Under the pieces are notes generated by a model that was given only the letters and a program-made list of their open reading frames with translations, was not told the origin of the DNA and made no database searches. Below, in pieces: positions 3,063 to 59,394 of a stretch of DNA of 64,000 nucleotides (the first letter of the stretch is position 1; every line of letters begins with the position of its first letter). This DNA comes from Plebeiibacterium marinum (lineage in GTDB: Bacteria; Bacteroidota; Bacteroidia; Bacteroidales; Marinilabiliaceae). The position numbers were made by a program, and so were the translations under genes. The stretch is from contig NZ_JAPDPI010000023.1 of assembly GCF_026013615.1 (NCBI RefSeq), forward strand, positions 1-64,000. Direction: 5' to 3'.

Positions 3063-3073
3063 CACTTATTTTT

Positions 3074-37134: not shown

Positions 37135-37241
37135 AAGCTTCATGGTTTTTGCTGAAGGTTAATAATCTGTAAGATTTATACGCGAATGGAACGGATCTGA
37201 TTTTCACGATGTCTATACAGATCCGATCCTCATGTAAATAG

Positions 37242-37412
37242 GTGCTGCAAAAAAACTGCTAAAATTTTTGTTGGCCCTCCCACACCCCTATGCCTAAAGG
37301 AAGTTACTTCCGAACTGTGCGTTGGAGTTTACTCCTTTAGAGCTTGTCCCGATCAAACGGGAGGAATCAAAGGGGTGAGCTTAGGAACCATGAGTTTTCT
37401 GGTAGAAACTAA
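37242..37412. repeat. Fold-back intergenic repeat, copy 1
   Basis: This segment resembles 59161-59315 over its whole length. Shared blocks include ACTGCT, CACACCCCT, TGCGTTGGA/GCGCGTTGGA, ATCAAAGGGGTGAGC and GAGTTTTCT. The ends are inverted (TGCAAAAAAACT against AGTTTTCTGGTA, imperfect), as are the inner CACCCCT (37283-37289) and AGGGGTG (37371-37377). Confidence 0.85.
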
Positions 37413-37481
37413 ACCCTGGCACATTTAATCTGATATAACGTATCATACCTATTTTTTTTATTTAGTTCCTGCAAGCTCTAT

Positions 37482-40400
37482 TTACTTCTTAATAACTTTA
37501 AATCCAGTTATCTTAACCTTATCAACATCAAGGTTTATAAAATAAATCCCTCTTTGCAACTGTTCAACAGGTAAAACGATATCTTCCCCACCCTTATATA
37601 TTTGGTTTAACACCTCTTTACCCGTAGCTGTAACTAATGACAATTGTACTTCTGCATAATCCGGTCCCAAATCAATATGTAAAAGATCCTGAACCGGATT
37701 TGGGTAAATATTCATAGAAGAAATGCTGTTCTCGTAAACTGAAGTAGCTGCCTCCACACTAAGAACTCCGTTGGTAAAATCCCATTGCATTCCATCTCCG
37801 GGAATGGCCGGCACAATTTCCTCGAAACTACCGGTATGGCCTGATGCAGAAAAGAGCGTAAAGGAGTCACCAATCTTTAATTCTCCGGTAATGTTCAAAT
37901 TCAATATACCATTATATAAAACGCCGGAAGTAGAAGACACTTTATCATTTGAGGTGTTTGTTGCGTCCAGATCCATATTAACATAACTACCGCTATTCAG
38001 GGTTAAACCTGCCACAGATAAAGTGGAGATGCCTCCATCCCCGGGTTCGAGCCCTGCACCTGCCTGAACCGTTACCCTACTGTACAAGCGCCCTTGTCCA
38101 GCCAGCATACCCCCTTCTACTGTGGTTGCGGCGGTAGAGGTATTTGTTCCGTTCACGATAAGTTTACCATCAGTAATACGCGTTGATCCGGAATAAATAT
38201 TATAACCTGTCAATCTCCAATAACCGGTTCCCTCTTTTATTATGGAAGTCCTTCCGTTGTAGTTTCGGTTAGAACATTCATTATTAATTACACCATGAAA
38301 TGTTTCATTGGTACCTGCACCACCTACAACCCAGGTCATTGTAGCCGAATTATTTTGCTTGTCGGCTCCTGCCAGCATTGTTCCGGAGGTTCCGGACAAA
38401 CCGCCCAACCACATGGTACTGGCATTTTTCCAGCATATAATCTTTGTTGTTCCGGAGGTGACTACCCTGGCGTTGGGAATACCTTTGGTATTGTTTAATA
38501 AAAACTGGTTACCATCACTTGTTGTTCCCAGACCATTTGCATTTATGGTTCCACTAAATAACGACCAGTCTCCTTGTATATACTCCCTGACATAATAGAT
38601 ATCGTAATCCAATGTTCCTTCTCCACTTACATTACCCTTCAGGTAGCAAGTACGGTCCACTTGAAAATAACTATGCTTACCGGCAGCTACTTCCATTCCA
38701 AAAGTATAAGTTTCGTAATTGGCACTTTCACCACCTGACAGTTTTAACCTGCCTCCATTCATTACAACCTTGCCAGAAGTTCCCATTCCTGCAGTATTTG
38801 TCAGGGCAGTCATTCCATTTAATTCCAGAGTACCCTGAGACACCGTTGTTTCTCCTGCGTATGGATTTTCGTTAGTTAAAAATAAATTTCCTGCTCCGGC
38901 TTTGGTTAAACCTCCCTGTCCGCCAATATTGCCTGTTATGGTAACTGTGGCATCTGCTTCCTGAACAGAAAACGCTGTTGTTCCATCCAGGGCAACACTT
39001 CTGTCGGTGGATACTGTAGTACCGGTATAATTGATCATTCCCCCTAACCATACCCAATTGAAATCGTAATTTTGGGAGGCTCCTATAGAACTTCTTGCCC
39101 CACCATTGGCCAGCCTGCTAATTTGCAGCACCCCATCATGTATTACCGTTGCCCCTGTGTACGAGTTATTGGTAGCCAAAGTTAAAGTTCCTGTACCGGT
39201 TTTATTTACAGAAGCACCTCCTGCTATACGATAACTACCCGAAAAAGTATAATCGTTATCCGCATCAACAACCATAGCCGAAGGCTCTACTTGCTCAGCC
39301 AGAGTAACACTCTGATCTCCTTCCATATTCCCAAACAACACGGCACTGTTCTCTGAATATGTAGTTGATTCACCTGAAGCCAGCCAGTTAGCGGTTGTTT
39401 CATCCCAATTATAATTAACGGTGGCATTCCAGCTAAAGTCTTCAACAAAACTCTCAATATCCAACACTTCCACTGGTACCGGCAAGGTTTTACATGTTAA
39501 TGTTTCTGAGTATTCTGACTCTATAGAGGAGTTATAAGCCTTTACCCTAAAAGTACCCTGCTCTTCAGGAGATAAATCTGTTACAGTAAAAGTATAAACA
39601 TTTGCTACAGTAGAACCAATTGGGGTGAACACTCCAGAAACCTCACGTTCGATAATATACCCTTCTTCCTGTTCGGTATAATCATACCATTCAAGCGTTA
39701 AGGAGGTTTGGGTGGATGAGGCCAGCCGTAAATTCAAAGGTTTCCTGAGATAGGCCTGTGTATTTTCCTGGCTGATACTATTAATATAGTTTTCAATATT
39801 TGCATAACCGTTTGAAGCTATTGCCATGGCATCTGCAGAAGATGAAGCATTTAAGCCATTGTTATTTTCCCATTCATCAGGAATACCATCATTATCACTA
39901 TCTACACGGGCTGTTCCCGACCATAAAAGCCAGCTTTCGGGGGCTCCAAAAGGAAGCTCCTCCTCTGATGTAATGATCTTACCATTATTACCCAATGACT
40001 TAACCTCATTTACAACATAATAATCCACATAATCGCGACAAGGCAATGAAGCACCTACTCCAGGCAAGACAGACTCAAAAACTTCATCAGCCCCAACAGT
40101 TGGCAACAATGGGTAATCATAAGGCTCATCCTGGAAATCAGGACCTCCGGAATAATCACTGAATGGCACTTCCGATCCATTCAAAGAACCATCTTTATTA
40201 CCATCATACCAGTTATCATCTGCATACAGATGAAAGTTTTCATTTGCACCACTCAGGGGAACACTACCATCATCAGGCCCCTTAATAAAATAGTTACTCA
40301 CGCAATTGGCGTAAGAATGCCCCTCCGAATCGCCTCCCATGATATAAGCAGCACTTCTCCAATTGTAAACAAGGTTATTCACATACTGATTAACACCTTT

Positions 40401-41054
40401 AACCTTATTATTCCGGGTGTCATTATCCACATACAGATTGCGATATAAAGTAACGCCTCCATTGGTTTGAATCAACCCTCCGGCAGAGTGGCTCATCAGC
40501 CCCTGGGCTATAATACAGTTTTGAATAGTAATGTTGGCAGGTTCAGTTCCTTTCCCATCCCAATTAATAGAAAAGGTTTCATCGCGTCCCCAGGATATGG
40601 AACAATGGTCGAAAATCATATTGACACCATTGGCCACACCCAAAGCATCTTTACCACTATCGCCATATTTTTCGCCCATACGAAACTTCATATAACGGCA
40701 TATACTATTATTTGCACCGGAAAAAGACACCCTGTTACCATAAACGGTAATACCCTCGCCAGGAGCTGTTTGCCCCGCAAGGTAAATATTTGACTTTACA
40801 ATTAGGGTGGAGCCAATTTTTATAACTCCTCCCACATCAAATACAACTATTCGATTACTCTGACTAACCGCATCTCTTAAAGATCCCGTTCCTGAATCAT
40901 TAAGGTTTGTAACATGATATACCGATCCATATCGGCCTCCTACGGCATATTTTCCGAACCCTTCGGCTCCGGGAAAAGCCAATTGCTGGCCATTTATTTG
41001 CATTGCCAATTGAGAAATAAGCAATGCAACGACTAAAAAGTAGATTTTATTCAT
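37482..41054 (-). CDS. Multidomain PL1-type lyase with type IX secretion tail
   Basis: A 1,190-residue secreted protein. Domains in order: signal peptide (1-22); PL1-type beta-helix (about 25-370; FPGAEGFGKYAVGGRYGSVY, DHCSISWGRDE, and TRNNKVKG where PL1 usually has RNPRLQG); Ca2+-loop DSDNDGIPDEWE; fibronectin-III-like domain (about 430-520); a long region with autotransporter-type strand repeats (GTGTLTLATNNSYTGATVI, GAGNLFLTNENPYAGETTV, YWRLTGYNIYSGSTRI); and a type IX sorting domain (IYPNPVQDLLHI to FKVIKK). The first Arg of the catalytic block is kept, but the following Pro and Arg are Asn and Lys, so activity or substrate may be altered. It stands alone between two loci; its promoter may be at 41088-41095. 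Confidence 0.85.
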   Translation of the reverse strand: MNKIYFLVVALLISQLAMQINGQQLAFPGAEGFGKYAVGGRYGSVYHVTNLNDSGTGSLRDAVSQSNRIVVFDVGGVIKIGSTLIVKSNIYLAGQTAPGEGITVYGNRVSFSGANNSICRYMKFRMGEKYGDSGKDALGVANGVNMIFDHCSISWGRDETFSINWDGKGTEPANITIQNCIIAQGLMSHSAGGLIQTNGGVTLYRNLYVDNDTRNNKVKGVNQYVNNLVYNWRSAAYIMGGDSEGHSYANCVSNYFIKGPDDGSVPLSGANENFHLYADDNWYDGNKDGSLNGSEVPFSDYSGGPDFQDEPYDYPLLPTVGADEVFESVLPGVGASLPCRDYVDYYVVNEVKSLGNNGKIITSEEELPFGAPESWLLWSGTARVDSDNDGIPDEWENNNGLNASSSADAMAIASNGYANIENYINSISQENTQAYLRKPLNLRLASSTQTSLTLEWYDYTEQEEGYIIEREVSGVFTPIGSTVANVYTFTVTDLSPEEQGTFRVKAYNSSIESEYSETLTCKTLPVPVEVLDIESFVEDFSWNATVNYNWDETTANWLASGESTTYSENSAVLFGNMEGDQSVTLAEQVEPSAMVVDADNDYTFSGSYRIAGGASVNKTGTGTLTLATNNSYTGATVIHDGVLQISRLANGGARSSIGASQNYDFNWVWLGGMINYTGTTVSTDRSVALDGTTAFSVQEADATVTITGNIGGQGGLTKAGAGNLFLTNENPYAGETTVSQGTLELNGMTALTNTAGMGTSGKVVMNGGRLKLSGGESANYETYTFGMEVAAGKHSYFQVDRTCYLKGNVSGEGTLDYDIYYVREYIQGDWSLFSGTINANGLGTTSDGNQFLLNNTKGIPNARVVTSGTTKIICWKNASTMWLGGLSGTSGTMLAGADKQNNSATMTWVVGGAGTNETFHGVINNECSNRNYNGRTSIIKEGTGYWRLTGYNIYSGSTRITDGKLIVNGTNTSTAATTVEGGMLAGQGRLYSRVTVQAGAGLEPGDGGISTLSVAGLTLNSGSYVNMDLDATNTSNDKVSSTSGVLYNGILNLNITGELKIGDSFTLFSASGHTGSFEEIVPAIPGDGMQWDFTNGVLSVEAATSVYENSISSMNIYPNPVQDLLHIDLGPDYAEVQLSLVTATGKEVLNQIYKGGEDIVLPVEQLQRGIYFINLDVDKVKITGFKVIKK

Positions 41055-41087
41055 TTATTGATTTGTTTAACTATAGCTGATTGTTAT

Positions 41088-41095
41088 CAAAATTA
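41088..41095 (-). promoter_or_regulatory. -7 promoter box of the multidomain lyase gene
   Basis: On the minus strand this reads TAATTTTG, a full match to TAnnTTTG, 33 bp before the start at 41054. No -33 box was recognised at the usual spacing. Confidence 0.45.
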
Positions 41096-41300
41096 GCTTT
41101 TCACCCTAACGATTGATATAAACCATAGTACAAATCAATGGAATTTTGTACGTATATAGTGTTGGTATAAAATATTATTACTGGCCGACCAGTTTTACAT
41201 GAAGAGAACAGGGATAAGAATTTCCCCATTTGGTAGTTGGAGGGTGCAGGTTTGGATAAAATCAAGTTTCTAAAATAAAAGAAATGATAATCTATCAGTA

Positions 41301-42701
41301 TTACTCTTTAATTGCAGCAACAATAGCTTCGGCTATATCCGGGAATATCCATATATAATCATTTCTGTTAATGATGCCAAACTCACCTGAATTGCCATTA
41401 TCCCACCAAACCGGACAAATACCTCTACTTACACATCCACTGGCAAAGTACCCGGCATGTTGCACCCTATCGTCCAAATTATTGTGATGCAAACTGCCCC
41501 ACTCTCCCATTACCACAGCAACACCATTAGCTATAAACTTTTGATATACTCTATCCAGTTCAGCATCCATGGCTTGTTTTTCTTCTTCCGTACCCCATTC
41601 GGTAACATAATCATTGGAAGCAAGCGCAAAATTGTATGGATAATAATTATGTACTGATACAATAAGGTTTGAAGAAGAGGGTAACTCAAGACCATCTATG
41701 GCTACCTGTGCTGAAGATGCAGCATATGGTGAAACCATGATATAGCGTTCCTGATTATTACCTCCTGTTGCCCTAATGGCCTCCACATTGGCCTGATGGA
41801 ATTGATTGATACAATCGCGTCCCTCGGCCGTGCCCCCGGTCCATTCGGCAGATGAACCTATTAGTCGTGGTTCATTCAGACTTTCAAATATCAGGTGCTC
41901 ATCATAATCTTTAAAACGGGTGGCTATTTGAGTCCATACTTTCCCCAATTGACCTTTTACCAGATTAAGCTTTTCGTAAGAAGGGATAATCCACTCTTCA
42001 TCGTGATGTATGTTTACGATTGCATACATATTATTATCCAATGCATAATTTACTACCTCCTCAACCCTGTCGAGCCACTCGCTCTCAATTAAATAATCAG
42101 GTTCGCTACCCATATGGTATTGCCAGGTAACCGGAATGCGCAAAGTTTTGAATCCCTTAAGGCATATTGCATCAATCAATTCTTTTGTAGCTTTGGGATT
42201 TCCCCAGGCCGTTTCGTCATCGCCTTTTGCATCCAGGGTATTCCCCAAATTCCAGCCTACCCCCATATTTGAAACAAATTCCATTGCCTGCTCATTAATA
42301 AGCGGTGCTGTTTTGGTGGTAAATGATATTTCAACAGCTTCCTCTAAAGGGACATTAAAAGTATTGATAACTCCACCCTTTGGTATCACAATAGTATAAT
42401 TTGTATTGTATTCCAGATTGATATTAAAAATCAGTTTGGTGAACCTGGATTCTACCGAAGCCGGAGTATTGTTAACCGTAATCCCATGATCAGGTGCTAA
42501 GGAAACCACCTCATCAAAAACAATTTCAATAATGGAAGACAAGTTAACATTGTGATCATTATTGGCCGGGATGCTTGATTTAAATACAGGTGCCGGCTTT
42601 GATGCCCCTTCTGAACTTGAACATGCTGTACAACCAGCAATTACCCATAAAATGACAATAATATGTTTTATGCTTTTCATATACCTTAATATAATTTTCA
42701 T
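41301..42701 (-). CDS. GH5 (subfamily 4-like) endo-beta-glucanase/mannanase lipoprotein
   Basis: A 466-residue lipoprotein (IAGC lipobox) with an N-terminal Ig-like Big_5 domain (about 35-130) and a GH5 barrel. GVGWNLGNTLDA, LRIPVTWQYHMG, VNIHHDEEW, FESLNEPR (acid/base Glu), SVHNYYPYNFAL and MGEWGS (nucleophile Glu) fit subfamily GH5_4. That group acts on beta-1,4-glucan, xyloglucan or glucomannan. The ATG at 42701 overlaps the stop of the preceding GH5_8 gene (ATGA); an ATG at 42680 (MKSIKHII) gives a shorter signal. It is the last gene of the mannan operon. Its Big_5 domain closely resembles that of the GH26 at 44880. Confidence 0.87.
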   Translation of the reverse strand: MKIILRYMKSIKHIIVILWVIAGCTACSSSEGASKPAPVFKSSIPANNDHNVNLSSIIEIVFDEVVSLAPDHGITVNNTPASVESRFTKLIFNINLEYNTNYTIVIPKGGVINTFNVPLEEAVEISFTTKTAPLINEQAMEFVSNMGVGWNLGNTLDAKGDDETAWGNPKATKELIDAICLKGFKTLRIPVTWQYHMGSEPDYLIESEWLDRVEEVVNYALDNNMYAIVNIHHDEEWIIPSYEKLNLVKGQLGKVWTQIATRFKDYDEHLIFESLNEPRLIGSSAEWTGGTAEGRDCINQFHQANVEAIRATGGNNQERYIMVSPYAASSAQVAIDGLELPSSSNLIVSVHNYYPYNFALASNDYVTEWGTEEEKQAMDAELDRVYQKFIANGVAVVMGEWGSLHHNNLDDRVQHAGYFASGCVSRGICPVWWDNGNSGEFGIINRNDYIWIFPDIAEAIVAAIKE

Positions 42702-43681
42702 TCAAAAACTGATGCTATTTTAGAGCTTGCTTTAATCCCATTATCTGAATTCAATAATTCTTCACCCCACCAGGTCAACGTTTCCCAATCCTGAAAAAGT
42801 ACCATATCAAGCCAGTTATTTTCTTCATTATTCCCAGTCCAGGACCAAGCCAGATAACCCATTCCCAAATTATTACATGTTTGTATAATCTGATTATGGT
42901 TTACCTTGCAATTTAAGTTATTGTCGCCACTATTGTAATTATATCCAAACTCTCCTACAATAACAGGAACCGACATCTGATTTAAATTAGATAAGTCGTC
43001 TCTTATTTTTGCTTCATCATTCCACGAACCATACATATGAATCGAAAACAACAGGTTATGTTCCGCATCGCTATCTATTAAATCTTGTCCATATAATATC
43101 ACTGGTTCGCTATTTTGTCCCCATCCCGGGGCATCAATCACAATTGTTGATTTATATCCTTCATGACGTAGTAAAGAAACACATTTTTTATATGCATCTC
43201 TCCAATATTCTGCTGTTATATAATGGTCGCCCCATTCGTTAGCAATATTTAGCAAGATGTGTTTTTCATACTTTTTAATGATGTTTTTCATTTGGGGCCG
43301 TACAAAATACCTGGCCAGTTGATAAAGCTTTGTGCCTGTAGAGTCGCCGGTAGCATCATGCAGCTCAACCATCGGAATCATTTTTAACCGGATGCACTTT
43401 TGCAAAACACTATCCAATCCTGATGGATCTAACTGACTCTCCCATACAATTCTTACGCAATTTATATTGTAAGCAGCAATTTTATCAAGGGCTTGGTAGG
43501 ATTGATTATAATGCCAGGCAAAGGGAACATTTACCCCTTGCATCACAAATGCATTTCCGTTGGCATCTAAAAGCTGATTCCCGACTGTTTTGAACCCTTT
43601 TATTTGCTCCTTTTGCTGACAAGAAAATAATACAAATATTAATCCTGTCAGAAAAGCAAAAATATTTAAACTATATCTCAT
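42698..43681 (-). CDS. GH5_8-like beta-mannanase lipoprotein
   Basis: A 327-residue lipoprotein (FVLFSC lipobox) whose catalytic domain resembles the GH5_8 mannanases of bacilli. GNAFVMQGVNVPFAWHYN, YNINCVRIVWES, VELHDATGD, LNIANEWGD (acid/base Glu), DAPGWGQNSEP, SIHMYGSW, VIVGEFGYN (nucleophile Glu) and LAWSWTGNNE are all close to that group. It should cut beta-1,4-mannan or glucomannan endo-wise. The gene overlaps both neighbours by a few bases (GH5_4 by 4, the epimerase by 11), which shows tight coupling. Confidence 0.9.
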   Translation of the reverse strand: MRYSLNIFAFLTGLIFVLFSCQQKEQIKGFKTVGNQLLDANGNAFVMQGVNVPFAWHYNQSYQALDKIAAYNINCVRIVWESQLDPSGLDSVLQKCIRLKMIPMVELHDATGDSTGTKLYQLARYFVRPQMKNIIKKYEKHILLNIANEWGDHYITAEYWRDAYKKCVSLLRHEGYKSTIVIDAPGWGQNSEPVILYGQDLIDSDAEHNLLFSIHMYGSWNDEAKIRDDLSNLNQMSVPVIVGEFGYNYNSGDNNLNCKVNHNQIIQTCNNLGMGYLAWSWTGNNEENNWLDMVLFQDWETLTWWGEELLNSDNGIKASSKIASVFE

Positions 43682-44870
43682 GCTTAATTCTTCTAATTGA
43701 TTCTATTAACGCCCTGGAATTGTGATATGGGCATTTCCAAAAACCTACCTTTGGCGGAACAGGGTCGGCAATACCTTCTTTATTTACTTTCCAGAACCAC
43801 TCACCTTTTTCCTTATCTTTTATATGGTTTAGAATAAAAGTCCAGCTATTTTTTGCTGCTTCAAGGTATTTCATATCAAAAGAGTTCTGGTAAGCATCTA
43901 AAAATCCCACCATCGCTTCTGCCTGAGGCCACCAATGCTTATCCGTATCCAAATGGTTCTTTTCCTTCTCGTAAAAAATTCCACCATCCATATCTAAGCC
44001 TTCCTGTATGGTAACATCTGCCATTTTTAGCGAGATATCTTTCATAATGGTTATTAATTCCTCATCTTTAATAACCTGAACTGCCTCATTTAACAACCAG
44101 GCTCCTTCAATATCGTGGCCATAAGAAACTATATCCGACTTCACTGCCCAGTCTACATCAAAAAACAGATTAAAATGATACGAACTACCATCGATTATTC
44201 TATCCCGAAAAGTTTTTAAAAGATCTTTGATTTGCAATTTTAATCCCTCATCTGGCCATACCCGATAAAGGTTGGTATAGGGTTCAATAATATGCAGGTG
44301 GGTATTCATAGATTTTGGCTCATTGGCATCCTTGGCACTTAAACGCATATCCTCCATGGGCAACCAACTACACGAAAGAGCTTCAATATATCCACCATAC
44401 ACCTCATCTTTAAAGTTGTTTTCAATCAAATTATACAGTTCAATTGCATACTCAAGGCTCTGCTTATTTTCTGAAGCCATATAATATTCAGAAAAACCAT
44501 AAATACCAAAGCCCTGGGCATAGGCTTGTTTATGACTGTCTTTAACTTCTCCTTTATAATCTACAGACCAAACCAGTCCTCCATTCTCTTTGTCCCAAAA
44601 ATTGGCAACTAAGTAGTCATAGGCCTTTTCGGCCATCTCCAGATAAACAGGATTTTTATATAAGTTATAGGCAGCGGAAAAAGTCCATAGCAAACGCGTG
44701 TTTAATACAGCACTTTTATCTGCCTTGTCGTTACGACACCCATTACCATCTATCTCACCTATAAAGCCACCATGATTACCATCCTGAACGTTAGAAATCC
44801 AAAAGTCCAAAATACTTTGTAATTCTTCCTGTAGTTGCGGAACAACATTATTTTTTAATTCCTCTATCAT
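43671..44870 (-). CDS. Mannobiose/cellobiose 2-epimerase (AGE family)
   Basis: A 399-residue (alpha/alpha)6-barrel epimerase without a signal peptide, hence cytoplasmic. It has the AGE-family marks SAVLNTRLLWTFSAAY, YAQGFGIYGFSEYY, MNTHLHIIEPY, YGHDIEGAWLL and KHWWPQAEAMVGF; the His residues of the last three blocks form the catalytic set in cellobiose 2-epimerase. In mannan loci this enzyme turns beta-1,4-mannobiose into mannosyl-glucose, the substrate of the GH130 enzyme found at 59395 in this locus. It lies 9 bp after the GH26 gene and overlaps GH5_8 by 11 bp. Confidence 0.92.
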   Translation of the reverse strand: MIEELKNNVVPQLQEELQSILDFWISNVQDGNHGGFIGEIDGNGCRNDKADKSAVLNTRLLWTFSAAYNLYKNPVYLEMAEKAYDYLVANFWDKENGGLVWSVDYKGEVKDSHKQAYAQGFGIYGFSEYYMASENKQSLEYAIELYNLIENNFKDEVYGGYIEALSCSWLPMEDMRLSAKDANEPKSMNTHLHIIEPYTNLYRVWPDEGLKLQIKDLLKTFRDRIIDGSSYHFNLFFDVDWAVKSDIVSYGHDIEGAWLLNEAVQVIKDEELITIMKDISLKMADVTIQEGLDMDGGIFYEKEKNHLDTDKHWWPQAEAMVGFLDAYQNSFDMKYLEAAKNSWTFILNHIKDKEKGEWFWKVNKEGIADPVPPKVGFWKCPYHNSRALIESIRRIKHEI

Positions 44871-44879
44871 GGCAATTCC

Positions 44880-46259: not shown

Positions 46260-46347
46260 AAATATTCTTTTGAAATTAAGACCTGCAATAACCTGCAGCA
46301 ATAATTTTTAACCTTTAAACCAGGATCAAGCTTTTAAAATTTTGTAA

Positions 46348-46387
46348 TAGCTAAAACGAGGTTGTAAACACAACCCCGCTTAAGCTA
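46348..46387. other. Intergenic hairpin upstream of the GH26 gene
   Basis: GGTTGT/ACAACC around an AAAC loop is extended by outer TAGCT/AGCTA pairing. It lies 76 bp after the stop of the IPT protein gene (minus strand). No U-run follows, so partial attenuation or mRNA processing within the operon is more likely than full termination. Confidence 0.4.
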
Positions 46388-46463
46388 AAACTCAAAAACA
46401 ATTCTATTTATTTAGGATTAAATCTTAGATTGGCAATCATTATACCTTGAAAATTCAAGAGGA

Positions 46464-48725: not shown

Positions 48726-48746
48726 AATTAATTTTACTTAGGATTA

Positions 48747-50012: not shown

Positions 50013-50082
50013 TTGTATAATTTTTATTTCTATAGGATAGATAAGATTGTATTGTTTTTCCTACCTAAACCATATTAAGAAA

Positions 50083-51780
50083 TTAATAACCTATTGAACT
50101 AAAATCAAAATCTACCGGCTCATTCATCAAGCCCGGATTTAAAGACAGATCCACTTCCGGGAAAGGAATGGTAAAGTCATCATCCGTAATTCCGGTAGCT
50201 TTAAGACTGTTTATTTCAAGATTAGATGCATCATCATAAGTATATAAATCATCCAAACCAGCCCAGTAACCCCTTTCCTGACTTGTGATCATTGTTTTTG
50301 CTTTTTCAGGCATATAATAATGGAGTCGTACAATATCGTACCATCTATCGCCTTCCAATGCCAGTTCTAATCTGCGTTCCTTATAAATATCATCAAAACT
50401 AAAACTTGCAGCTGGCTCGTAAAAGCTATGCAAAGCCCTTTCTCTAACCGCATTGTATGCAGCTAATGCCCCGGCATCTGTAGTTGAGCTATTGTTGCCT
50501 AAAACAGCTTCTGCGTAAACCAGGTATACATCTGCTAAACGAAGAATGTGTGTACTCAATGGGGTATGCATCCTGTCTAAAGCATCATAGCCTTGGGCCT
50601 CAGCATCAGCCAAGCGACCAACAATATGCTTGGCACAGTTTGATCCTGTTCCACTGGCAAAAGCTAAAGCACCTTCATATTGTCCATCGGCATCATTATC
50701 CCAGTTATAATCAAAACCACCAAATTCTACCCAGAAATAATCATAATGGTCACCCACCATCATTATTGTGGCTTTACGGCGTGTATCGAGGTTATTTCGT
50801 ATTAAGCTACCGGCACTTTCATCAAAAGCCGTTTGCAGGTCGATGGTTGGATATACCCAGTTACCCCATGACTGAACCGCATCAGAAAAATTTGTCATGG
50901 ACAAATCTGATTGTAAAGAGTTTTGACTAGTCCATTGCGACCCAACTGTCCAGTGCCATGCAATCAGGCTCTCATCTGAAAAATTGCTTTTTAGCTGGAA
51001 GATATCTTCGTAATTAGGTTCCAAAACACGGCCACTCTCATCGATAACCATTTTTGCATAATTTGCCGCATTAGTAAGGTCACTTTCGTTACGCGACCCG
51101 CTCATACCATAACCCGATTTTGTCAGGTATACTTTTGCTAACAAACCGCAGGCACTGTACTTATCTATTCTACCGGTCCTGTTTTTTTCCGGCAATAAAT
51201 CTATGGCATCTTCAAGTAAATAAATGATATACTGGTATACATCTTCCACTTTGTTTCTTCTTAAGGTAGTTGATGTATTATTGGCAATAATTTCAGCATT
51301 ATCGTGAATAATGGGCACGGCACCAAAACAACGTACCAGGTAAAAATACGACATGGCTTTCCATACCATTGCCTCACCTTTTACCGTGTTTTTAACCGTT
51401 TGAGAAACATCGGCGCTTGATTTCATATCCACATTTTCAATAACACCATTGCAATAAGCATTTACCGACCATAACGAAGCGGATGCATTGGCAATATCAG
51501 CATCGGAATTGTTTAACGTAAAGTTGGTATAACCATCACCACTATCGAAAATGATGTTTCCTGCCAATACATCACCAATTTTCATAAACCCACGTTGAAA
51601 ATCGTACCAGGGCGAATTGTAGATAGAGTTTACAGCCTGATATATCTGTTCATCGTTTTGATAAAAGGTATCGATGGTATAGGAATCTTCAGCCGGTTTG
51701 TCTAAAAAATCATCACATGAAACCGTTAATCCAACACCAATAAAAACTATTAATAATTTTATTATATTATATTTTTTCAT
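50083..51780 (-). CDS. SusD-like lipoprotein (mannan locus)
   Basis: A 565-residue RagB/SusD protein. The mature start SCDDFLDKPAEDSYT is typical, as are the TPR-like helices (AMVWKAMSYFYLVRCFGAVP) and the C-terminal RRLELALEGDRWYDIVRL and EVDLSLNPGLMN motifs. It acts as the surface lid of the SusC transporter encoded 12 bp upstream. The substrate is taken from the neighbouring mannan enzymes. Confidence 0.94.
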   Translation of the reverse strand: MKKYNIIKLLIVFIGVGLTVSCDDFLDKPAEDSYTIDTFYQNDEQIYQAVNSIYNSPWYDFQRGFMKIGDVLAGNIIFDSGDGYTNFTLNNSDADIANASASLWSVNAYCNGVIENVDMKSSADVSQTVKNTVKGEAMVWKAMSYFYLVRCFGAVPIIHDNAEIIANNTSTTLRRNKVEDVYQYIIYLLEDAIDLLPEKNRTGRIDKYSACGLLAKVYLTKSGYGMSGSRNESDLTNAANYAKMVIDESGRVLEPNYEDIFQLKSNFSDESLIAWHWTVGSQWTSQNSLQSDLSMTNFSDAVQSWGNWVYPTIDLQTAFDESAGSLIRNNLDTRRKATIMMVGDHYDYFWVEFGGFDYNWDNDADGQYEGALAFASGTGSNCAKHIVGRLADAEAQGYDALDRMHTPLSTHILRLADVYLVYAEAVLGNNSSTTDAGALAAYNAVRERALHSFYEPAASFSFDDIYKERRLELALEGDRWYDIVRLHYYMPEKAKTMITSQERGYWAGLDDLYTYDDASNLEINSLKATGITDDDFTIPFPEVDLSLNPGLMNEPVDFDFSSIGY

Positions 51781-51792
51781 CGTAATTACTTT

Positions 51793-54700
51793 TTAGAATG
51801 AAACATTTAAACCGAAAGTAAATACCTGAGGTGAAGGATATCGGCCATTATCCAATCCAAAAACATTAGGGCTTTGTGTACTCGCCCCTACTTCCGGGTC
51901 AAATCCTGAATAGTCTGTAAATGTTACCAGATTCTCTATACTTGCGTAAATTCTTGCATTACTTAACCTGACTTTTTCAATCAAGGTTTTAGGGAAAGTA
52001 TATCCTAACGTGATATTCTTGATTCTGATAAATGAACCATCCTCAATATACCTGTCCGAAATACGGTCATTATCATTTTGGTCCTGTCCGGTTGCCCTTG
52101 GGATGTTTGTATTCGGATTAATCAAACGTACATTCGAAACATCGTTTAAACTAGTTCCTTCAATGCTTGGATCTATAACCTCTAACCTTGCTCTGTTATT
52201 TACAACAGCTAACTGGTTAGAAAATTCACTTTTCATATTTGACAAGCTGATGGCGGTATAATTCATTACATCGTTTCCATATGAACCATTGATAAACACG
52301 GCCAAATCAAAGTTTTTATAAGAAAAGGTATTGTTTAACCCAAAAGTAAAATCAGGCATTGGAGAACCTATGTTAGTACGATCGTAAGAATCTATGATTC
52401 CATCAGGCTTACCATCGGGCCCGCTAATATCTTTAAACTTTAAATCGCCTATATAAGTAGTGTTGGTGATATGGAATGATTCCCCATCGCTTGGGTACCC
52501 TACCTGTACAGGACTACTCTTTAAATCCTCCAGACTTTGAAAAACCCCGTCTGTTACATATCCATAAAAATTAAAAAGAGGATCGCCCACTTCTGTCAGT
52601 GATACCACATCGCTCCATTGTCCGTAACCTTCCAAATGAGCAGATGGAGTTCCATCTAAAGCCACCAATTTGTTTCTGTTAAAAGAAATTTGAAAATCGG
52701 TATCCCAGGTAAACGCCTTTTTAATATTATGCGTTGTTAAAGAAATCTCTAAACCTTTGTTTTCAATTTCACCAAAGTTACCCCATGGAGCTGCGAGTGC
52801 ACTTGATGAGTTTCCTCTTGTACCCATATACGAAGGCAACTGCATATCCATTAACATATCATTCGAAATCTTTTTATATACTTCAACAACAACATCAGCT
52901 ACATCCATTATCGACAAGTCTAAACCAATATTGTACTGTTCCTGCTTTTCCCATTTGATATATGGGTTTGAAATATTTGTCTGGCGGTATCCTGCACCTA
53001 AGCCTGTTTCCATTTTAGAGATACTGGCACCCCATAAATAACCATCAATATCCTGGTTTCCTACTTGTCCCCAACCGAAACGTAGTTTTGCATTACGTAA
53101 AACAGGTTCTGACCATTTCATAAATGATTCGTTACTCAATCTCCATGAAGCAGCGAATGAGTTAAAACCGGCCCACCTGTTCTCCGGTCCAAAATTTGAA
53201 GAACCATCACGACGATAGGTGTAAGTTAGCATATACCTATTGTCATAATTATAATTGAAACGTCCAAAAACCGAGGCATTAGACATACTGTTAAAGCCGT
53301 AATTAATTTGTGGCGTTCCGTCGCCGAGAGCCGGGTTTTGAATATCGTTACTTGGTAAGTTTGTGTTATAAACACTTTCATAATCCAATGAAGACTCAAA
53401 CATATCCTGACCAACCATAGCTGTACCGCTATGCTTACCAAATGATTTTGAATAGGTCATGTAGTTTTTAATCTGCCAGAAAGTGTATTTGTTATTCTGT
53501 GCACGCATTGAATTTATTGACCGATCCCAATTACCATAGGTAACAGCAGGCCTGAACACTTCTGCTTTAGAATAATTCAGATTTAAAGTTCCTTCGGTAT
53601 GAAATTTCAAATCTTTCAGGATATCAAAATCAAAAAATACAGTACTACCAAAAGCCGTTTTTTCCAGGAGATTATCATCATCCAAAGCTAACCCAATAGC
53701 ATTTGGGTTTGAGGGCTGCCTGTCTCTAAAAATAGTGGCATAATTACCATCCATATCATAAATAGGCATATCAGGTGTAGTTTGCAGTGCAATACGGATA
53801 ATACCCGATTCAGAATCTGCAAGCCCAAGTCTTTCATCGGTTTGAGAATATTTAATATTCACCCCCATTTTCAGCCAGCTTTTCAGCTCTGCATCCAGGT
53901 TGGTACTAAACGACATACGCTCAAACTCTGTCCCGATAACGGTTCCTTCCTGATTCATATATCCACCCGAAACATAGTATTTCAATTTTTCGCCACCACC
54001 ACTGGCACTGATTTGATGTTGCTGAACTGCTGCCAGTTGAAAGATGGCATCCTGCCAGTTGGTTCCTTTGCCTAATAAAGACGGATCCTGAAATTCAGCT
54101 CGTGGATCATTAGAATTTAAATCTGAGGCTACTTCATTACTGTACTCGGCAAACTCCCTAAGATTCAAAATATCAATCCTGGTATCCTGGTGCTGAACAC
54201 CGTAAGAACCTCCATAAGTAAACTTGGCATCACCTTTCTTACCTCTTTTTGTAGTAATCATGATAACTCCGTTTGCCCCCATTGATCCGTAAATAGCAGT
54301 TGCTGAAGCATCTTTAAGGATCTCCATAGAAACAATATCATTAGGGTTAATTGTTGACAGTGGAGAAACCCCTGTTGTTGGTGAGTTACCCAATGCATCT
54401 CCCAAACCCAAATCATGACCACTTGAAGTATTACTGGTCATTGGCACTCCATCAATAACATAGAGCGGTTCTGCACCTGCATTAATGGTACTCTGGCCAC
54501 GCACCCGAATACTCACTGCACCACCAGGCTGACCCGTAGTAGAAACTGCAGAAACCCCGGCAGCTCTTCCTTTTAGTGCCTGATCAATGTTAGCAATACC
54601 GGCTCCTTTTAGTTTTTCTGCCGACAACGAAACCGATGCTCCCGAAAGGTCACTCTTTTTCATAGTTCCATATCCAACCACAACCACCTCGTCAAGCCCC

Positions 54701-55002
54701 TCAACATCGGGCACCATCTGTACATTTATTACTGTTTGGTTACCAACTTCAATTTCCCTGGCTTTAAAGCCGATAAAAGAAAAGGTTAACTTCACCTTCT
54801 CCTGAGGAATCACCAGGCTGTAATTACCGTCAATATCAGTAATTGTACCTGTAGTTGTGCCTCCTATCTGGATAGATACTCCCGGTAAGGGTTCATTTGT
54901 ATCATCCTTTACCGTACCAGTTATTGTCCTGTTTTGCCCTATCATCACCTGGGCTACAAAAAACATAACAACAACGGTAAAGAGTCGTAGATTTGTTTTC
55001 AT
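51793..55002 (-). CDS. SusC-like TonB-dependent transporter (mannan locus)
   Basis: A 1,069-residue outer-membrane transporter: signal peptide, carboxypeptidase-regulatory-like domain (GTVKDDTNEPLPGVSIQIGG), SusC plug (DEVVVVGYGTMKKSDLSGA; LYVIDGVPM; EILKDASATAIYGSMGANGV) and a beta-barrel ending TFGLNVSF. The open frame begins at 55053, but the ATG at 55002 (MKTNLRLFTVVVMFF) places the signal correctly. A TAnnTTTG match upstream (55077-55084) suggests an internal promoter in the operon. It should import mannan or glucomannan oligosaccharides. Confidence 0.95.
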   Translation of the reverse strand: MKTNLRLFTVVVMFFVAQVMIGQNRTITGTVKDDTNEPLPGVSIQIGGTTTGTITDIDGNYSLVIPQEKVKLTFSFIGFKAREIEVGNQTVINVQMVPDVEGLDEVVVVGYGTMKKSDLSGASVSLSAEKLKGAGIANIDQALKGRAAGVSAVSTTGQPGGAVSIRVRGQSTINAGAEPLYVIDGVPMTSNTSSGHDLGLGDALGNSPTTGVSPLSTINPNDIVSMEILKDASATAIYGSMGANGVIMITTKRGKKGDAKFTYGGSYGVQHQDTRIDILNLREFAEYSNEVASDLNSNDPRAEFQDPSLLGKGTNWQDAIFQLAAVQQHQISASGGGEKLKYYVSGGYMNQEGTVIGTEFERMSFSTNLDAELKSWLKMGVNIKYSQTDERLGLADSESGIIRIALQTTPDMPIYDMDGNYATIFRDRQPSNPNAIGLALDDDNLLEKTAFGSTVFFDFDILKDLKFHTEGTLNLNYSKAEVFRPAVTYGNWDRSINSMRAQNNKYTFWQIKNYMTYSKSFGKHSGTAMVGQDMFESSLDYESVYNTNLPSNDIQNPALGDGTPQINYGFNSMSNASVFGRFNYNYDNRYMLTYTYRRDGSSNFGPENRWAGFNSFAASWRLSNESFMKWSEPVLRNAKLRFGWGQVGNQDIDGYLWGASISKMETGLGAGYRQTNISNPYIKWEKQEQYNIGLDLSIMDVADVVVEVYKKISNDMLMDMQLPSYMGTRGNSSSALAAPWGNFGEIENKGLEISLTTHNIKKAFTWDTDFQISFNRNKLVALDGTPSAHLEGYGQWSDVVSLTEVGDPLFNFYGYVTDGVFQSLEDLKSSPVQVGYPSDGESFHITNTTYIGDLKFKDISGPDGKPDGIIDSYDRTNIGSPMPDFTFGLNNTFSYKNFDLAVFINGSYGNDVMNYTAISLSNMKSEFSNQLAVVNNRARLEVIDPSIEGTSLNDVSNVRLINPNTNIPRATGQDQNDNDRISDRYIEDGSFIRIKNITLGYTFPKTLIEKVRLSNARIYASIENLVTFTDYSGFDPEVGASTQSPNVFGLDNGRYPSPQVFTFGLNVSF

Positions 55003-55076
55003 ATAAATTGATTTAATTTGATAATTATTTAAACTAATTGTGCACACATTCATTACATGTTAAAAGAACCATTATT

Positions 55077-55084
55077 CAAAAATA
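55077..55084 (-). promoter_or_regulatory. Possible internal promoter (-7 box) before susC
   Basis: On the minus strand this reads TATTTTTG, matching TAnnTTTG, 75 bp before the susC start. No clear -33 box was found, so the call rests on one element. Confidence 0.4.
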
Positions 55085-55116
55085 TGTTACTTAATGTAAA
55101 GCATTGTGTTGATTTG

Positions 55117-57711
55117 TTAACTTGTTATGTACCTAAAGTTAACCCGCTTCGTATCCACTGAATATAAAGACTTTACAACCCTAACTTTCTTTATTCCCCC
55201 AGGTAACAAATCAAAATAATTGTCATCAAGGATGAGTCCGGACCTGTTATCATACAAGTATAAACCCCTTACCAACGTATTTGATTTAACTACAAGATAA
55301 AGTCCTTCTGCTGATTCTTCAAATGAAATATCTATTTCCGGTGATTGAAGCTTCTGTTCTTTCGCAGTTGTAAAAAAATGGGTTTTTGTACTTATTTCTT
55401 TCCCGTCTTCGCTTAGGGTCAGAGCCAAAACACAAGACTCCTTTGTAAAACCGTCTATTGATTCTGGGTTAAAAGATTCTAATTGAGTGCTTGTATTTTC
55501 CATTATATCAACATTTCGCACTTCACTATACAATATGTTTCCCTTAAAATCCATGAGCTGAATATTCATTTCTGCTTTTTTGTTTTCCTGAAGATCAGAA
55601 ACAACATATAACTCCACCTCATGTCCTTTATTTACTGCACTGATCATTACTGGCTCAAAAGCCTTTTTTACGGCATAATGAACTGCTTTCCATTTATGAT
55701 AATAATCGGTACTGCTCCAGCTGGCCACAGGCCAACAGTCGTTTATCTGCCAATAAAGCGATCCCATGCAATAGGGCATTGCCCTGCGGTGCGCCTCAAT
55801 AGCCATTCGTATACCATGGGCTTGCAAAACCTGGCTCATATATAAAAACTCCTCAAAATTATCAGGGACTTTGTAATACCAACTCAGGTATTCTTTAATG
55901 CGCAAGTTTCCAATACCGCTCCGCTGATGGGCAGCCATTACCTCTGATTCAATATCATAGTCTTCAGGCTTTGCGTAAGTCTGTACCGATTCAAAATCAG
56001 GAAACGACTGAAAGCCATATTCACTCATAAAGCGCGACTTGTATTTGTCGAAATCTTCAAATGGGTGCAATGCATGCCAAACTCCCCAATAGTGCGTATC
56101 TCCTGATGTGGATTCATAGCTGGCGTGATTATTGGGTTCATAACCTGACTGAGGTGAAGAAGGCCAATAATCCGTTTCTGTTAAACTATCCACTACCTGA
56201 GGTAGTATATCGTGAAAAATATCAGTATAAGCCCGGTGTATTTCTTCTTGCTGTTCTTTATTATAACGTTTTTTCCAGCCCCATCCTCCTTGTCCGTAAT
56301 GATGCCAGGCTGTATTTATTTCATTATTACCACACCATAGAACGATTGAAGGGTGGTTGTGTAATCGTGTTACATTATCAATTGCCTCCTGCTCTATATT
56401 CTTCAACATGGCCTCATTTCCCGGATACATGGAACAAGCAAACATAAAATCTTGCCAAACCATAATACCATTACGGTCGCATAATTCATAAAAATAATCA
56501 TCCTCATATATGCCACCTCCCCATATACGCAACATATTCATATTTGCATCAGCAGCATCGGCAACCACTTTTTCGTAATCAGATTTTGTAACACGAGGTA
56601 AAAAACTATCGTTAGGAATATAATTGGCTCCCTTTGCAAATACTCTTACCCCATTTAATTCAAACAAAAAAGTCTCGCCTTTATCATCTGCCTCCCTAAC
56701 CAACTTAACAGAACGCAACCCGGCAGATACCTTCTTATTTGATACCACCATCCCACCAACGACAACCTGCACATTAAAATCATACATTGTGGGATTTCCC
56801 AAACCATTACTCCACCACAATTTCGGATTGACAATTTCAAAAGGTACTGAAACCAAATTCATTCCTTTTTTTAACAGCACCTTTTTTACAGCAACAGCAC
56901 TTTTCTCTTTATCACTGTTTATTACCAATTCTGCTTCAAAACCATCGTTGGCATCTATATTGATTTCGGCAGTTAATTTGGCAAGCTGCTTTGTTACTGA
57001 GGGTTGCCTGATATAAACGGATTCAATATTTAAGTCATCCCAGCATCTTAGTTCTACCGGACGCCAGATACCCGAAGTTACAAACCGGGGGCCCCAATCC
57101 CATCCATAATGATAACCTGCCTTTCGTGTAAATACCGATATCTTTTTATCTCCCAATCCTCCATTCTCCGATTGGTCGTTTGTTGCCGGGTATGCATAAG
57201 GAGAAGCATTGTACAACTCCAGCCCCTTTTTAACGGGGGAATGCAAATATACCTTCAACAGATTTTCTCCTTCCATCAGCATTTTTTTTACATCTACCGA
57301 CCATTCCCTATGCATATTAAATGCCTCTAATATGAGTTTCCCATTAATAAACACATCCGCATAAGTATCCAATCCATAAAAATGTAAAACTACCTTATCT
57401 TTATCCAGTATATTTTTACCAACCGTAAATGTCTTCTGATAAACCCAGTCTTTTTTATCTATCCATTGCAAATCCTTTTCATTGGTCCTGTAAAAAGGAT
57501 CTTCAATCTGGTTATTATTCAATAAATCGGTATGGATTGTACCTGGCACAATAGCAGAACCTTTATGCTCTCCCTCAACGTCCTCATACGTCCAGCCCTT
57601 ATTGAGCCTTACTACAGTGTAATTATCAATCGGTTTTTGCTGACAAGCACATATGCCCATAACCCAACATATAAATATCCCAAAATTCTTTATGCTCCTA
57701 TATATGTTCAT
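55117..57711 (-). CDS. GH2 beta-mannosidase lipoprotein
   Basis: An 864-residue GH2 enzyme that removes beta-mannose from the non-reducing end of manno-oligosaccharides. The start RLNKGWTYEDVEGE and VPGTIHTDLLNNNQIEDPFYRTNE match known beta-mannosidases. The jelly-roll, Ig-like and barrel domains are followed by the acid/base WCGNNEINTAW and the nucleophile FMSEYGFQSFPDF. The leader contains MGICAC, a lipobox. The open frame begins at 57756 inside the MFS gene; the ATG at 57711 (MNIYRSIKNFG) is preferred. Transporter and mannosidase genes are 13 bp apart. Confidence 0.93.
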   Translation of the reverse strand: MNIYRSIKNFGIFICWVMGICACQQKPIDNYTVVRLNKGWTYEDVEGEHKGSAIVPGTIHTDLLNNNQIEDPFYRTNEKDLQWIDKKDWVYQKTFTVGKNILDKDKVVLHFYGLDTYADVFINGKLILEAFNMHREWSVDVKKMLMEGENLLKVYLHSPVKKGLELYNASPYAYPATNDQSENGGLGDKKISVFTRKAGYHYGWDWGPRFVTSGIWRPVELRCWDDLNIESVYIRQPSVTKQLAKLTAEINIDANDGFEAELVINSDKEKSAVAVKKVLLKKGMNLVSVPFEIVNPKLWWSNGLGNPTMYDFNVQVVVGGMVVSNKKVSAGLRSVKLVREADDKGETFLFELNGVRVFAKGANYIPNDSFLPRVTKSDYEKVVADAADANMNMLRIWGGGIYEDDYFYELCDRNGIMVWQDFMFACSMYPGNEAMLKNIEQEAIDNVTRLHNHPSIVLWCGNNEINTAWHHYGQGGWGWKKRYNKEQQEEIHRAYTDIFHDILPQVVDSLTETDYWPSSPQSGYEPNNHASYESTSGDTHYWGVWHALHPFEDFDKYKSRFMSEYGFQSFPDFESVQTYAKPEDYDIESEVMAAHQRSGIGNLRIKEYLSWYYKVPDNFEEFLYMSQVLQAHGIRMAIEAHRRAMPYCMGSLYWQINDCWPVASWSSTDYYHKWKAVHYAVKKAFEPVMISAVNKGHEVELYVVSDLQENKKAEMNIQLMDFKGNILYSEVRNVDIMENTSTQLESFNPESIDGFTKESCVLALTLSEDGKEISTKTHFFTTAKEQKLQSPEIDISFEESAEGLYLVVKSNTLVRGLYLYDNRSGLILDDNYFDLLPGGIKKVRVVKSLYSVDTKRVNFRYITS

Positions 57712-57724
57712 CTTGCACTGAATT

Positions 57725-59107
57725 TTATACCTTATTAATCCTTTCGTTAAGTTCATCCTTAACTTTCTTCATATAACTCTCGTTTAATTTGTATACCAAC
57801 AAAAAAACAACAGAAAGGCCTGCTGCCACAGCAGGTACAACGCTCATCATAAACCTGATTCCGGTTTGGGATTCTGCTGTTACATTGTTAGGAGAATATC
57901 CTACAGAAGCCAATATATATCCGGTTAGAGCAATACCCAAAGTGCTTCCCAGTTTTTGCGACATACTAATTGAAGAAAAAATAAGACCTGTAGCCCTGCG
58001 TCCGGATTTCCATTCTGAGTAATCAGCAATATCGCCAAACATAGCAAGCATTAACGGAATTGGTAAACCTGCGGCAATACCTACAACAACCTGAAGCAAC
58101 AATAACATATAAATATCATTTGGCGATATTGGGTAATATAATAAACTGGCAACTAATGATATGATCATAAATACCATATAAGCTTTCTTTTTTCCCAATG
58201 TCTTTGCCATCCAGGTTGCCATAAAAACCCCCAGTATATTTGCCCCTGTCCACACCGGAACCAAAATGCCGGTTAAAGCCTTATAATCAAGATGCCATAC
58301 ATTGCCAAATAGCATTAACTCCTGCTCCCCAAAATAATACTTTAAATAATAAACCGCAGCTCCTTCCCTCAACTGGTTAAATATCACAGTAAAAACACCA
58401 ACTGCTAAAAGGATAAACCATTGTTTATTATGCAACAAATCTTTCAGGTCTTCTTTTATCGATGATTTTTCTTGCTTTAAAGGTTTTACACGTTCCCTTG
58501 TTAAAAAGAAGGTCAACAAGAAAAACACTACAGACAATACGCCAAATATTCCTACTGCCATTTGCCAGCCCAACTGTTCATTATCCCCTCCGAGCACACC
58601 TGCCATTTTAAGCAAGGTTGCCTGAACCAAAATACCACCTCCAAATGCAAATGCATAACGATATGAGGCCAACGAAGTTCTTTGAACTGAATCGGAAGTT
58701 ATAACCCCTATCAGTGATGAATACGGAACATTTACTACTGTATAAATCATCATCATTAGCGAATAACTGACATAAGCATAAATAAGCTTACCGTTTTCGG
58801 CAAATCCCGGGGTTGTAAATGTAAGAACTCCTATAATTGCAAAAGGGACTGAAAACCACAGCAGGTAAGGCCGAAACTGCCCCCATTTTGTTTTTGTACG
58901 GTCGGCAATTGCCCCCATAATCAAATCATTAAGCGCATCCCAAAAGCGGGTAATCAAAATCATGGTACCTGCCGCAGCTGCCGAAATACCAAACACATCT
59001 GTATAAAAGAATATCAAAAAAGTTGTAAACAACTTATAGAACATGGAAGATGCTGCATCTCCAAAACCATATCCTATTTTTTCTTTAAAGGAAACTTTAT
59101 TTATCAT
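57725..59107 (-). CDS. GPH-family sugar:cation symporter (MFS)
   Basis: A 460-residue inner-membrane transporter with 12 predicted helices of the MelB/GPH family. VSFKEKIGYGFGDAASSMFY, FWDALNDLIMGAIADRTKTKWGQFRPYLLW and FGDIADYSEWKSGRRATGLIFS are family signatures. In mannan loci of Bacteroides such a protein carries mannobiose or mannosyl-glucose into the cytoplasm, where the epimerase and GH130 act. It lies 13 bp before GH2. A 287-bp gap with a fold-back repeat separates it from GH130. Confidence 0.9.
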   Translation of the reverse strand: MINKVSFKEKIGYGFGDAASSMFYKLFTTFLIFFYTDVFGISAAAAGTMILITRFWDALNDLIMGAIADRTKTKWGQFRPYLLWFSVPFAIIGVLTFTTPGFAENGKLIYAYVSYSLMMMIYTVVNVPYSSLIGVITSDSVQRTSLASYRYAFAFGGGILVQATLLKMAGVLGGDNEQLGWQMAVGIFGVLSVVFFLLTFFLTRERVKPLKQEKSSIKEDLKDLLHNKQWFILLAVGVFTVIFNQLREGAAVYYLKYYFGEQELMLFGNVWHLDYKALTGILVPVWTGANILGVFMATWMAKTLGKKKAYMVFMIISLVASLLYYPISPNDIYMLLLLQVVVGIAAGLPIPLMLAMFGDIADYSEWKSGRRATGLIFSSISMSQKLGSTLGIALTGYILASVGYSPNNVTAESQTGIRFMMSVVPAVAAGLSVVFLLVYKLNESYMKKVKDELNERINKV

Positions 59108-59160
59108 AGATTTTATTTTAGATTTTAAACTCTTTCAATTGCTACCGCATAATATAATTA

Positions 59161-59315
59161 GTGCTTGCAAGAAAACTGCTGAAATTTATGTTAGCCCACC
59201 CACACCCCTCAGTCCCCTAAAGGGGAAGTTGCTCCCGCACAGCGCGTTGGAATTTTCCCTTTTAGGGGATCAAAGGGGTGAGCGTAGGAATCACGAGTTT
59301 TCTTGCAGAAATTAA
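59161..59315. repeat. Fold-back intergenic repeat, copy 2
   Basis: Matches 37242-37412 along its length. The ends form a perfect 12-bp inverted repeat (TGCAAGAAAACT, 59166-59177; AGTTTTCTTGCA, 59296-59307). Inside, CACCCCT (59203-59209) faces AGGGGTG (59274-59280), and a 15-bp segment (59213-59227) pairs with 59255-59269 at 14 of 15 positions, so the whole element can fold into one long hairpin. It lies between the GH130 and transporter genes. Confidence 0.88.
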
Positions 59316-59394
59316 TCATGCGGTTACCATACCTTTATCACACAAAAAATTAGTGCGGCAGCAATTAACCTGATATTGCACCAACCTGATAGAT

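Follow-up and report, generated by a model that had tools for sequence, protein, structure and literature searches.

What are the two fold-back repeats with inverted ends that lie 22 kb apart, copy 1 between convergent genes and copy 2 inside a mannan operon, in a 64,000-nucleotide stretch of the Plebeiibacterium marinum genome (assembly GCF_026013615.1, contig NZ_JAPDPI010000023.1, positions 1 to 64,000; hereafter the window)? A sequence-only reading had offered two answers, a non-autonomous mobile element or a structural repeat of the repetitive extragenic palindromic (REP) kind. We conclude, with a probability of about 90%, that the repeat is a miniature inverted-repeat transposable element (MITE), non-autonomous and moved in trans by the transposase of an ISNCY-family insertion sequence. 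MITEs are a kind of element already known; in a limited search of the open-access literature we found neither the family nor its mover described, nor the TANNTA target rule set out below. Genomes and loci are denoted by G and L numbers, G000 being the genome of the window.

A dispersed family in the genome of P. marinum

Copies 1 and 2 aligned over their full length, in agreement with the claim that the two segments are alike from end to end, and their limits were refined (Table 1). A search of the own genome with copy 2 recovered copy 1 at 71% identity (E 3.4e-21). With E up to 1, the same search gave at least 65 rows. Several of these were fragments of a single copy or its reading on the other strand, and merging within 400 bp left at least 40 distinct places on 27 contigs; scores were computed for the best 40 of the 84 candidates from the first look, so this is no full census. 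Further copies, as a mobile element should have, are thus numerous. The 11-base core of the terminal inverted repeat (TIR) occurred 84 times in this genome, compared to seven times for the pattern read backwards, and copy 2 was not matched in collections of plasmids and phages at E up to 1e-5.

Element counts for the own genome given below refer, unless stated otherwise, to 33 elements that measure 60-300 bp and can be read at both ends. This set leaves out solitary ends and copies located at the end of a contig, the elements of 410 bp and 1.5 kb, and copy 1, because its ends are worn. Eleven of the elements are 150-154 bp long, 14 are 172-184 bp, one is 199 bp and seven are 98-142 bp; a fixed helical phasing of these lengths was weighed by eye and dropped. 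Subfamilies A and B are homologous, as the likeness of their interiors was reached in 0/200 shuffles, and have a common plan that consists of the ends, palindromes of the CCCCTAAAGGGG type and a centre of the CGCACTGTGCG type. In those longer copies that were read, AGAGCyTGTCCCGA...GGGAGG hairpins replace one or both of the arm palindromes. A crude scan for open reading frames (ORFs) showed that an ORF of at least 100 aa spans none of the 33 elements and runs into three, and copies 1 and 2 (169 and 152 bp) both have TIRs and no such ORF inside.

A 1.5-kb element with MITE-like ends in the own genome (L052, positions 2451-3952, contig C172) is flanked by TTTATA/TATATA and contains ORFs of 192 and 67 aa. 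It was considered as an autonomous element and rejected, one ORF giving a weak, sub-threshold DUF308 match and the other no match, and neither a transposase; it is perhaps a passenger-carrying relative of the MITE.

Target-site duplication

Comparison of the flanks showed an exact 6-bp duplication of the form TANNTA around 14 of the 33 elements, where 1.47 would be expected with flanks swapped between copies, so that the target duplications anticipated for a mobile element were indeed present. The flanks match at five or more of six bases in 23 elements, and an earlier, looser list of 39 elements had given 14 exact duplications compared to 1.7 expected. Across all 101 elements of the genomes examined, 53 duplications were exact, compared to 7.1 expected. 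Sites that depart from TANNTA were duplicated with the departure included (TATCTG/TATCTG and CATTTA/CATTTA), indicating that the duplication is one of 6 bp and not of 2 bp between fixed TA ends.

Insertion sequences of relatives as the likely mover

Occurrences of the TIR were then counted in the own genome and in 60 relatives, and compared with those of the reversed pattern. An excess was seen in G000 (120/9), G003 (182/8), G011 (43/8) and G046 (42/4), and also in G032 (18/2), G035 (13/3) and G029 (16/6). Related transposase genes were found in G003, which belongs to the same genus, in G008 and in others; G003 contains insertion-sequence copies with an intact frame together with many MITEs. 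In G035, a pair of TIRs at a distance of 1.84 kb encloses broken transposase frames.

We extracted eight insertion sequences from the relatives, seven of 1.82-1.84 kb and one of 1.12 kb; a second G003 copy, lying 9 kb away with the same flanks, was not included. Their ends, exemplified in G003 by GTCCTTGCAAGAAAAC / GTCTCGGCAAGAAAACTC, are the same as or closely similar to those of the MITE, and the TANNTA duplication is exact in seven of the eight, the exception being TAAATA/TATATA. An automatic scan of 29 named loci, which favoured matching flanks and not TANNTA, found TANNTA on both sides of GT-ends in 14, exact in eight; two of the 14 (G008 and G035, both exact) were already among the cut-out copies, and the other 15 loci gave no such call, a shifted register having visibly been chosen in four.

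All four intact transposases scored above the cut-off of the ISNCY model NF033593 (378.7-407.1 bits, cut-off 325). The Pfam model DDE_Tnp_1 was passed by one of the four (27.9, cut-off 23), another fell just below (22.9) and two did not reach it at E 0.01; a sequence search of the PDB with the transposase gave no match at E up to 0.1. An ISNCY-type insertion sequence is therefore most likely the mover of the copies in the window. In the mechanism that we propose, its DDE-type transposase would act in trans, recognise ends of the form GTnYYnGCAAGAAAACT, and insert the element at TANNTA with a 6-bp stagger, which would duplicate TANNTA. The interior is self-complementary, gene-free DNA whose arms carry small palindromes such as CCCCTAAAGGGG, swapped for other hairpins in some copies.

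The transposase frame is broken near the same lysine-rich stretch in three insertion-sequence copies (L122, L172 and L173), which may reflect chance, a hot spot or slippage. Relatives of the transposase were also seen in Candidatus Brocadia records (L229, L239, L241, L254 and L257), with ends that are similar too in L229 (TAGTGTCTGAACGAAAAC), suggesting a transfer from one phylum to another.

The two copies in the window

The features of the two copies are collected in Table 1. Copy 2 contains the perfect 12-bp inverted pair that had been described for it, TGCAAGAAAACT at 59166-59177 with AGTTTTCTTGCA at 59296-59307, which lies inside the ends of the element. Folded as RNA, it forms a single long hairpin, as had been predicted, with an energy of -69 kcal/mol (z -7.3 compared to dinucleotide shuffles). 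Copy 1 is more worn, with degenerate ends and an extra hairpin (TCCCGATCAAACGGGA) on one arm, and folds more weakly (-50.9 kcal/mol, z -2.3). Pfam matches in the neighbouring genes agreed with the settings first assigned to the copies: of the convergent genes beside copy 1, one encodes an outer-membrane efflux protein and the other a secreted protein that has a Por_Secre_tail domain, and copy 2 lies between genes for a GH130 enzyme and an MFS_2 sugar transporter, adjoined by GH26 and GH2 genes. A larger inverted repeat, seen by eye, encloses copy 2 (AATTGCTACCGCA / TGCGGCAGCAATT, window 59137-59149 and 59354-59366, 12/13 bases), and is perhaps an older hairpin or element.

Table 1. Positions of the MITE copies and their parts in the window, and loci of the second lineage.
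Feature	Location	Strand	Remarks
MITE copy 1	37241..37409	+	169 bp; ends degenerate, GGTGCTGCAAAAAAACT / AGTTTTCTGGTAGAAAC; one hairpin module swapped in
Copy 1 left flank, TAAATA	37235..37240	.	target-duplication position; 4/6 identical to right flank
Copy 1 right flank, TAAACC	37410..37415	.	
Hairpin module of copy 1, AGAGCTTGTCCCGATCAAACGGGAGG	37339..37364	+	absent from copy 2; same place in L009, L014, L018
MITE copy 2	59161..59312	+	152 bp; subfamily A; between GH130 and MFS_2 genes
Copy 2 left target duplication, TAATTA	59155..59160	.	
Copy 2 right target duplication, TAATCA	59313..59318	.	5/6 match
Copy 2 left TIR, GTGCTTGCAAGAAAACT	59161..59177	+	
Copy 2 right TIR, AGTTTTCTTGCAGAAAT (as read on +)	59296..59312	-	
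Second-lineage loci	L138-L157, L275-L304, L335-L353		

The mannan-gene junction in a same-genus genome

In G004, a genome of the same genus, the GH26 (partial in the stretch), GH130 and MFS_2 genes are ordered as in the window and the element is absent. The GH130 proteins are 84% identical over 403 aligned positions and the MFS_2 proteins 50%, and the gap between the two genes measures 27 nt in G004 and 287 nt in the window. Among 14 loci fetched, a full GH130 gene beside MFS_2 was seen only in G004 and in the window itself, and the comparison is therefore a single case; a second protein query, at another gene junction, found a match in one of eight same-genus genomes. The search for an empty site thus succeeded in part, in that the element is absent at the G004 junction, although this junction is too diverged for the comparison to be exact to the base. 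A tandem array in G003 (L144, C3:3220500-3228000) with a 1591-bp unit carries a MITE in three units; it was rejected as an empty site, because the fourth unit diverges at that very position.

Weighing the MITE interpretation

A number of observations weigh against movement by an ISNCY-type transposase. A transposase search of the own draft genome gave no match at E up to 1e-10 (six candidates scored) or 1e-5 (five scored). None of the insertion sequences found would give the MITE interior by internal deletion, the stretch just inside the TIR is weakly like that of the insertion sequences (7/40 comparisons at p <=0.03), and the ends of the G008 and G033 insertion sequences differ from those of the MITE at several bases. 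Fewer than five of six flank bases match in 10 of the 33 elements, and the flanks of copy 1 match at four of six. Many of the 101 elements counted across the examined genomes are close relatives of one another and hence not independent. Finally, subtracting the element and one duplication from the gap in the mannan operon still leaves 129 nt, compared to 27 nt in G004.

The lack of a transposase match in the own draft genome is the reason why the mover was taken from relatives; insertion sequences with the same or closely similar ends, the partner expected for such an element, were found there and not in the own draft. The assembly is a draft of 187 contigs with 98% completeness, and copies of the element end at least nine of these contigs, so that the mover may lie in unassembled sequence. 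The most alike pair among 32 own-genome elements is 95.4% identical, compared to 99.3% among 16 in G003, which together with the intact transposase frames of G003 fits movement that is past in P. marinum and recent in G003. Movement in the genome of the window would thus be over, or would depend on a transposase missing from the assembly.

The repeat is short, has TIRs and no transposase gene, is dispersed, makes a duplication of fixed length and has an autonomous partner in relatives, as expected of a MITE. Taken together, the dispersed copies with common TIRs, the 6-bp duplications, the absence from G004, and the insertion sequences of relatives with similar ends and target bear out the MITE-like half of the sequence-only reading.

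Alternative explanations

An origin as a MITE could be followed by a new role, in which copy 2 would now be a putative regulatory spacer: RNA reading through from the GH130 gene to the transporter gene would fold at the element and be cut, or would slow the polymerase, shifting the ratio of the two products. The element does lie between these genes, both on the - strand, and its hairpin is very stable. However, no terminator-like site was found within it, the operon of G004 does without it, and the promoter-like site between element and transporter (59138-59110, - strand) is one of two found, compared to 2.1 in shuffles. We consider such a role unlikely.

It is far less probable that the repeat, recurring by chance, is an operon attenuator or a conserved structured RNA. 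Besides the strong hairpin at copy 2, an alignment of 11 family copies had 15 cells changed on both sides, compared to 7.5 in shuffles, with a covariation score and a percentage paired above all 500 shuffles. Against this, the six pairs changed on both sides were reached by 145/500 shuffles, and neither subfamily preferred one strand, the better fold being in the chosen orientation in 8/15 elements of A and 7/15 of B. The copies lie in unrelated places, no Rfam model matched the window at gathering scores, and G004 lacks the segment between its GH130 and MFS_2 genes, contrary to what a conserved RNA held at one place in relatives would show. With E up to 0.1, a run of Rfam on nine loci gave six matches, each to a microRNA model; all were in L127 and below the gathering score, and were taken as chance.

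A structural repeat of the REP or bacterial interspersed mosaic element (BIME) type, spread by a Y1 (RAYT) transposase, a linked copy of which is a trait of REP/RAYT repeats, and working as a hairpin in DNA or RNA, would account for the fold-back structure, the intergenic position and the many copies, but is hardly tenable, since the ends resemble those of insertion sequences with DDE transposases and 14/33 elements have exact 6-bp duplications (1.5 expected), which REP elements, to our knowledge, are not known to make.

Comparison with known elements

The presumed mover belongs to the ISNCY insertion sequences (NCBIfam NF033593), and its copies in relatives have a TIR that closely resembles that of the MITE and likewise duplicate TANNTA; unlike these, the MITE has no transposase gene and its interior is unrelated. 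The IS1202 family, placed under ISNCY in ISfinder, has a large DDE transposase and includes one subgroup with short target duplications; in the part of the published account used here, the type studied has outer ends 5'-TGT and ACA-3' and duplications of 3-5, >15 or 0 bp, with one subgroup adjoining dif-like sites (PMC10132070). The insertion sequences described here differ from that account in their 6-bp TANNTA duplication and their ends; as the cut-out copies begin 5'-GTnYYnGCAAG and not with 5'-TGT / ACA-3' ends, the IS1202 family was rejected for the partner (PMC10132070).

MITE-like elements have been described in another Bacteroidota species, Porphyromonas gingivalis, where the TIRs of BrickBuilt, MITE239, MITE700 and MITEPgRS match full-size insertion sequences of the genome; as far as the portion of that report used here goes, those elements belong to the IS5 family, the duplication of BrickBuilt varies in length, and the TIR sequences differ from ours (PMC4596501). 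Likewise, MITECca01 of Cardinium, also in a Bacteroidota genome, is ~240 bp long and has ends in common with an insertion sequence, but its parent is given, in the section drawn on, as ISCca4 of the IS982 family (PMC9769881). A 187-nt MITE of Microcystis is, in the excerpt relied upon, a multi-copy, mainly intergenic stem-loop tied to an insertion sequence by its ends and duplication length, though with a parent of the ISL3 family and duplications of 8 nt (PMC11448079).

A second lineage with another interior

Closely similar ends and the same target were also found around another interior in G003, G011, G029, G035, G020, G061 and G070. This second lineage makes up 53 of the 101 elements, and 32 of the 53 are 152-153 bp long. 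G046 has two 152-bp elements with a third interior. The cores of the three interiors (in elements of 153, 153 and 152 bp) show no likeness (p 0.42-1.0); the constancy of length is tempered by other unrelated elements with these ends, of 145, 172 and 238 bp. Two 254-bp elements of G003 (L142 and L151) carry the same insert of ~101 bp at the same place in different surroundings, and the composite therefore seems to have moved as a unit.

In the second lineage, the right end forms a stem with an internal near-copy of itself, and G-U pairs make up part of this pairing. Among 16 non-redundant sequences, 10 of the 21 pairs of this stem were changed on both sides compared to 5.3 in shuffles, with 0/500 shuffles reaching this number and slid versions of the stem giving 1-4, although sequences that share descent may surpass shuffles even when they have no structure; 83/500 shuffles reached the number of further pair types. 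Fifteen of the 16 elements (43/44 before removal of near-identical ones) fold better on one strand. This preference holds with both RNA and DNA parameters, and so does not tell an RNA from a folded single-stranded DNA. Copying between the arms of a palindrome could also keep the pairs, but one would not expect this process to prefer G-U pairs on one of the strands. In contrast, the family in the window has no strand preference, as described above, and weaker paired change, hinting at a folded-strand function in the second lineage and not in that of the window. Rather speculatively, then, the ISNCY-driven group might keep its ends, TANNTA and often a length of 152-153 bp while swapping its interior, that of the second lineage being a selected fold, either as mobile RNA genes or as a folded single strand needed to move; we regard this as a proposal that is probably wrong in some part.

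For P. marinum, a repeat family found in intergenic stretches and at contig ends can now be given a likely mover together with a rule for its target, TANNTA with a 6-bp duplication. Beyond this genome, the near-constant length and one-strand folding of the second lineage raise the testable question of whether some bacterial MITEs have a selected RNA or folded-strand function.

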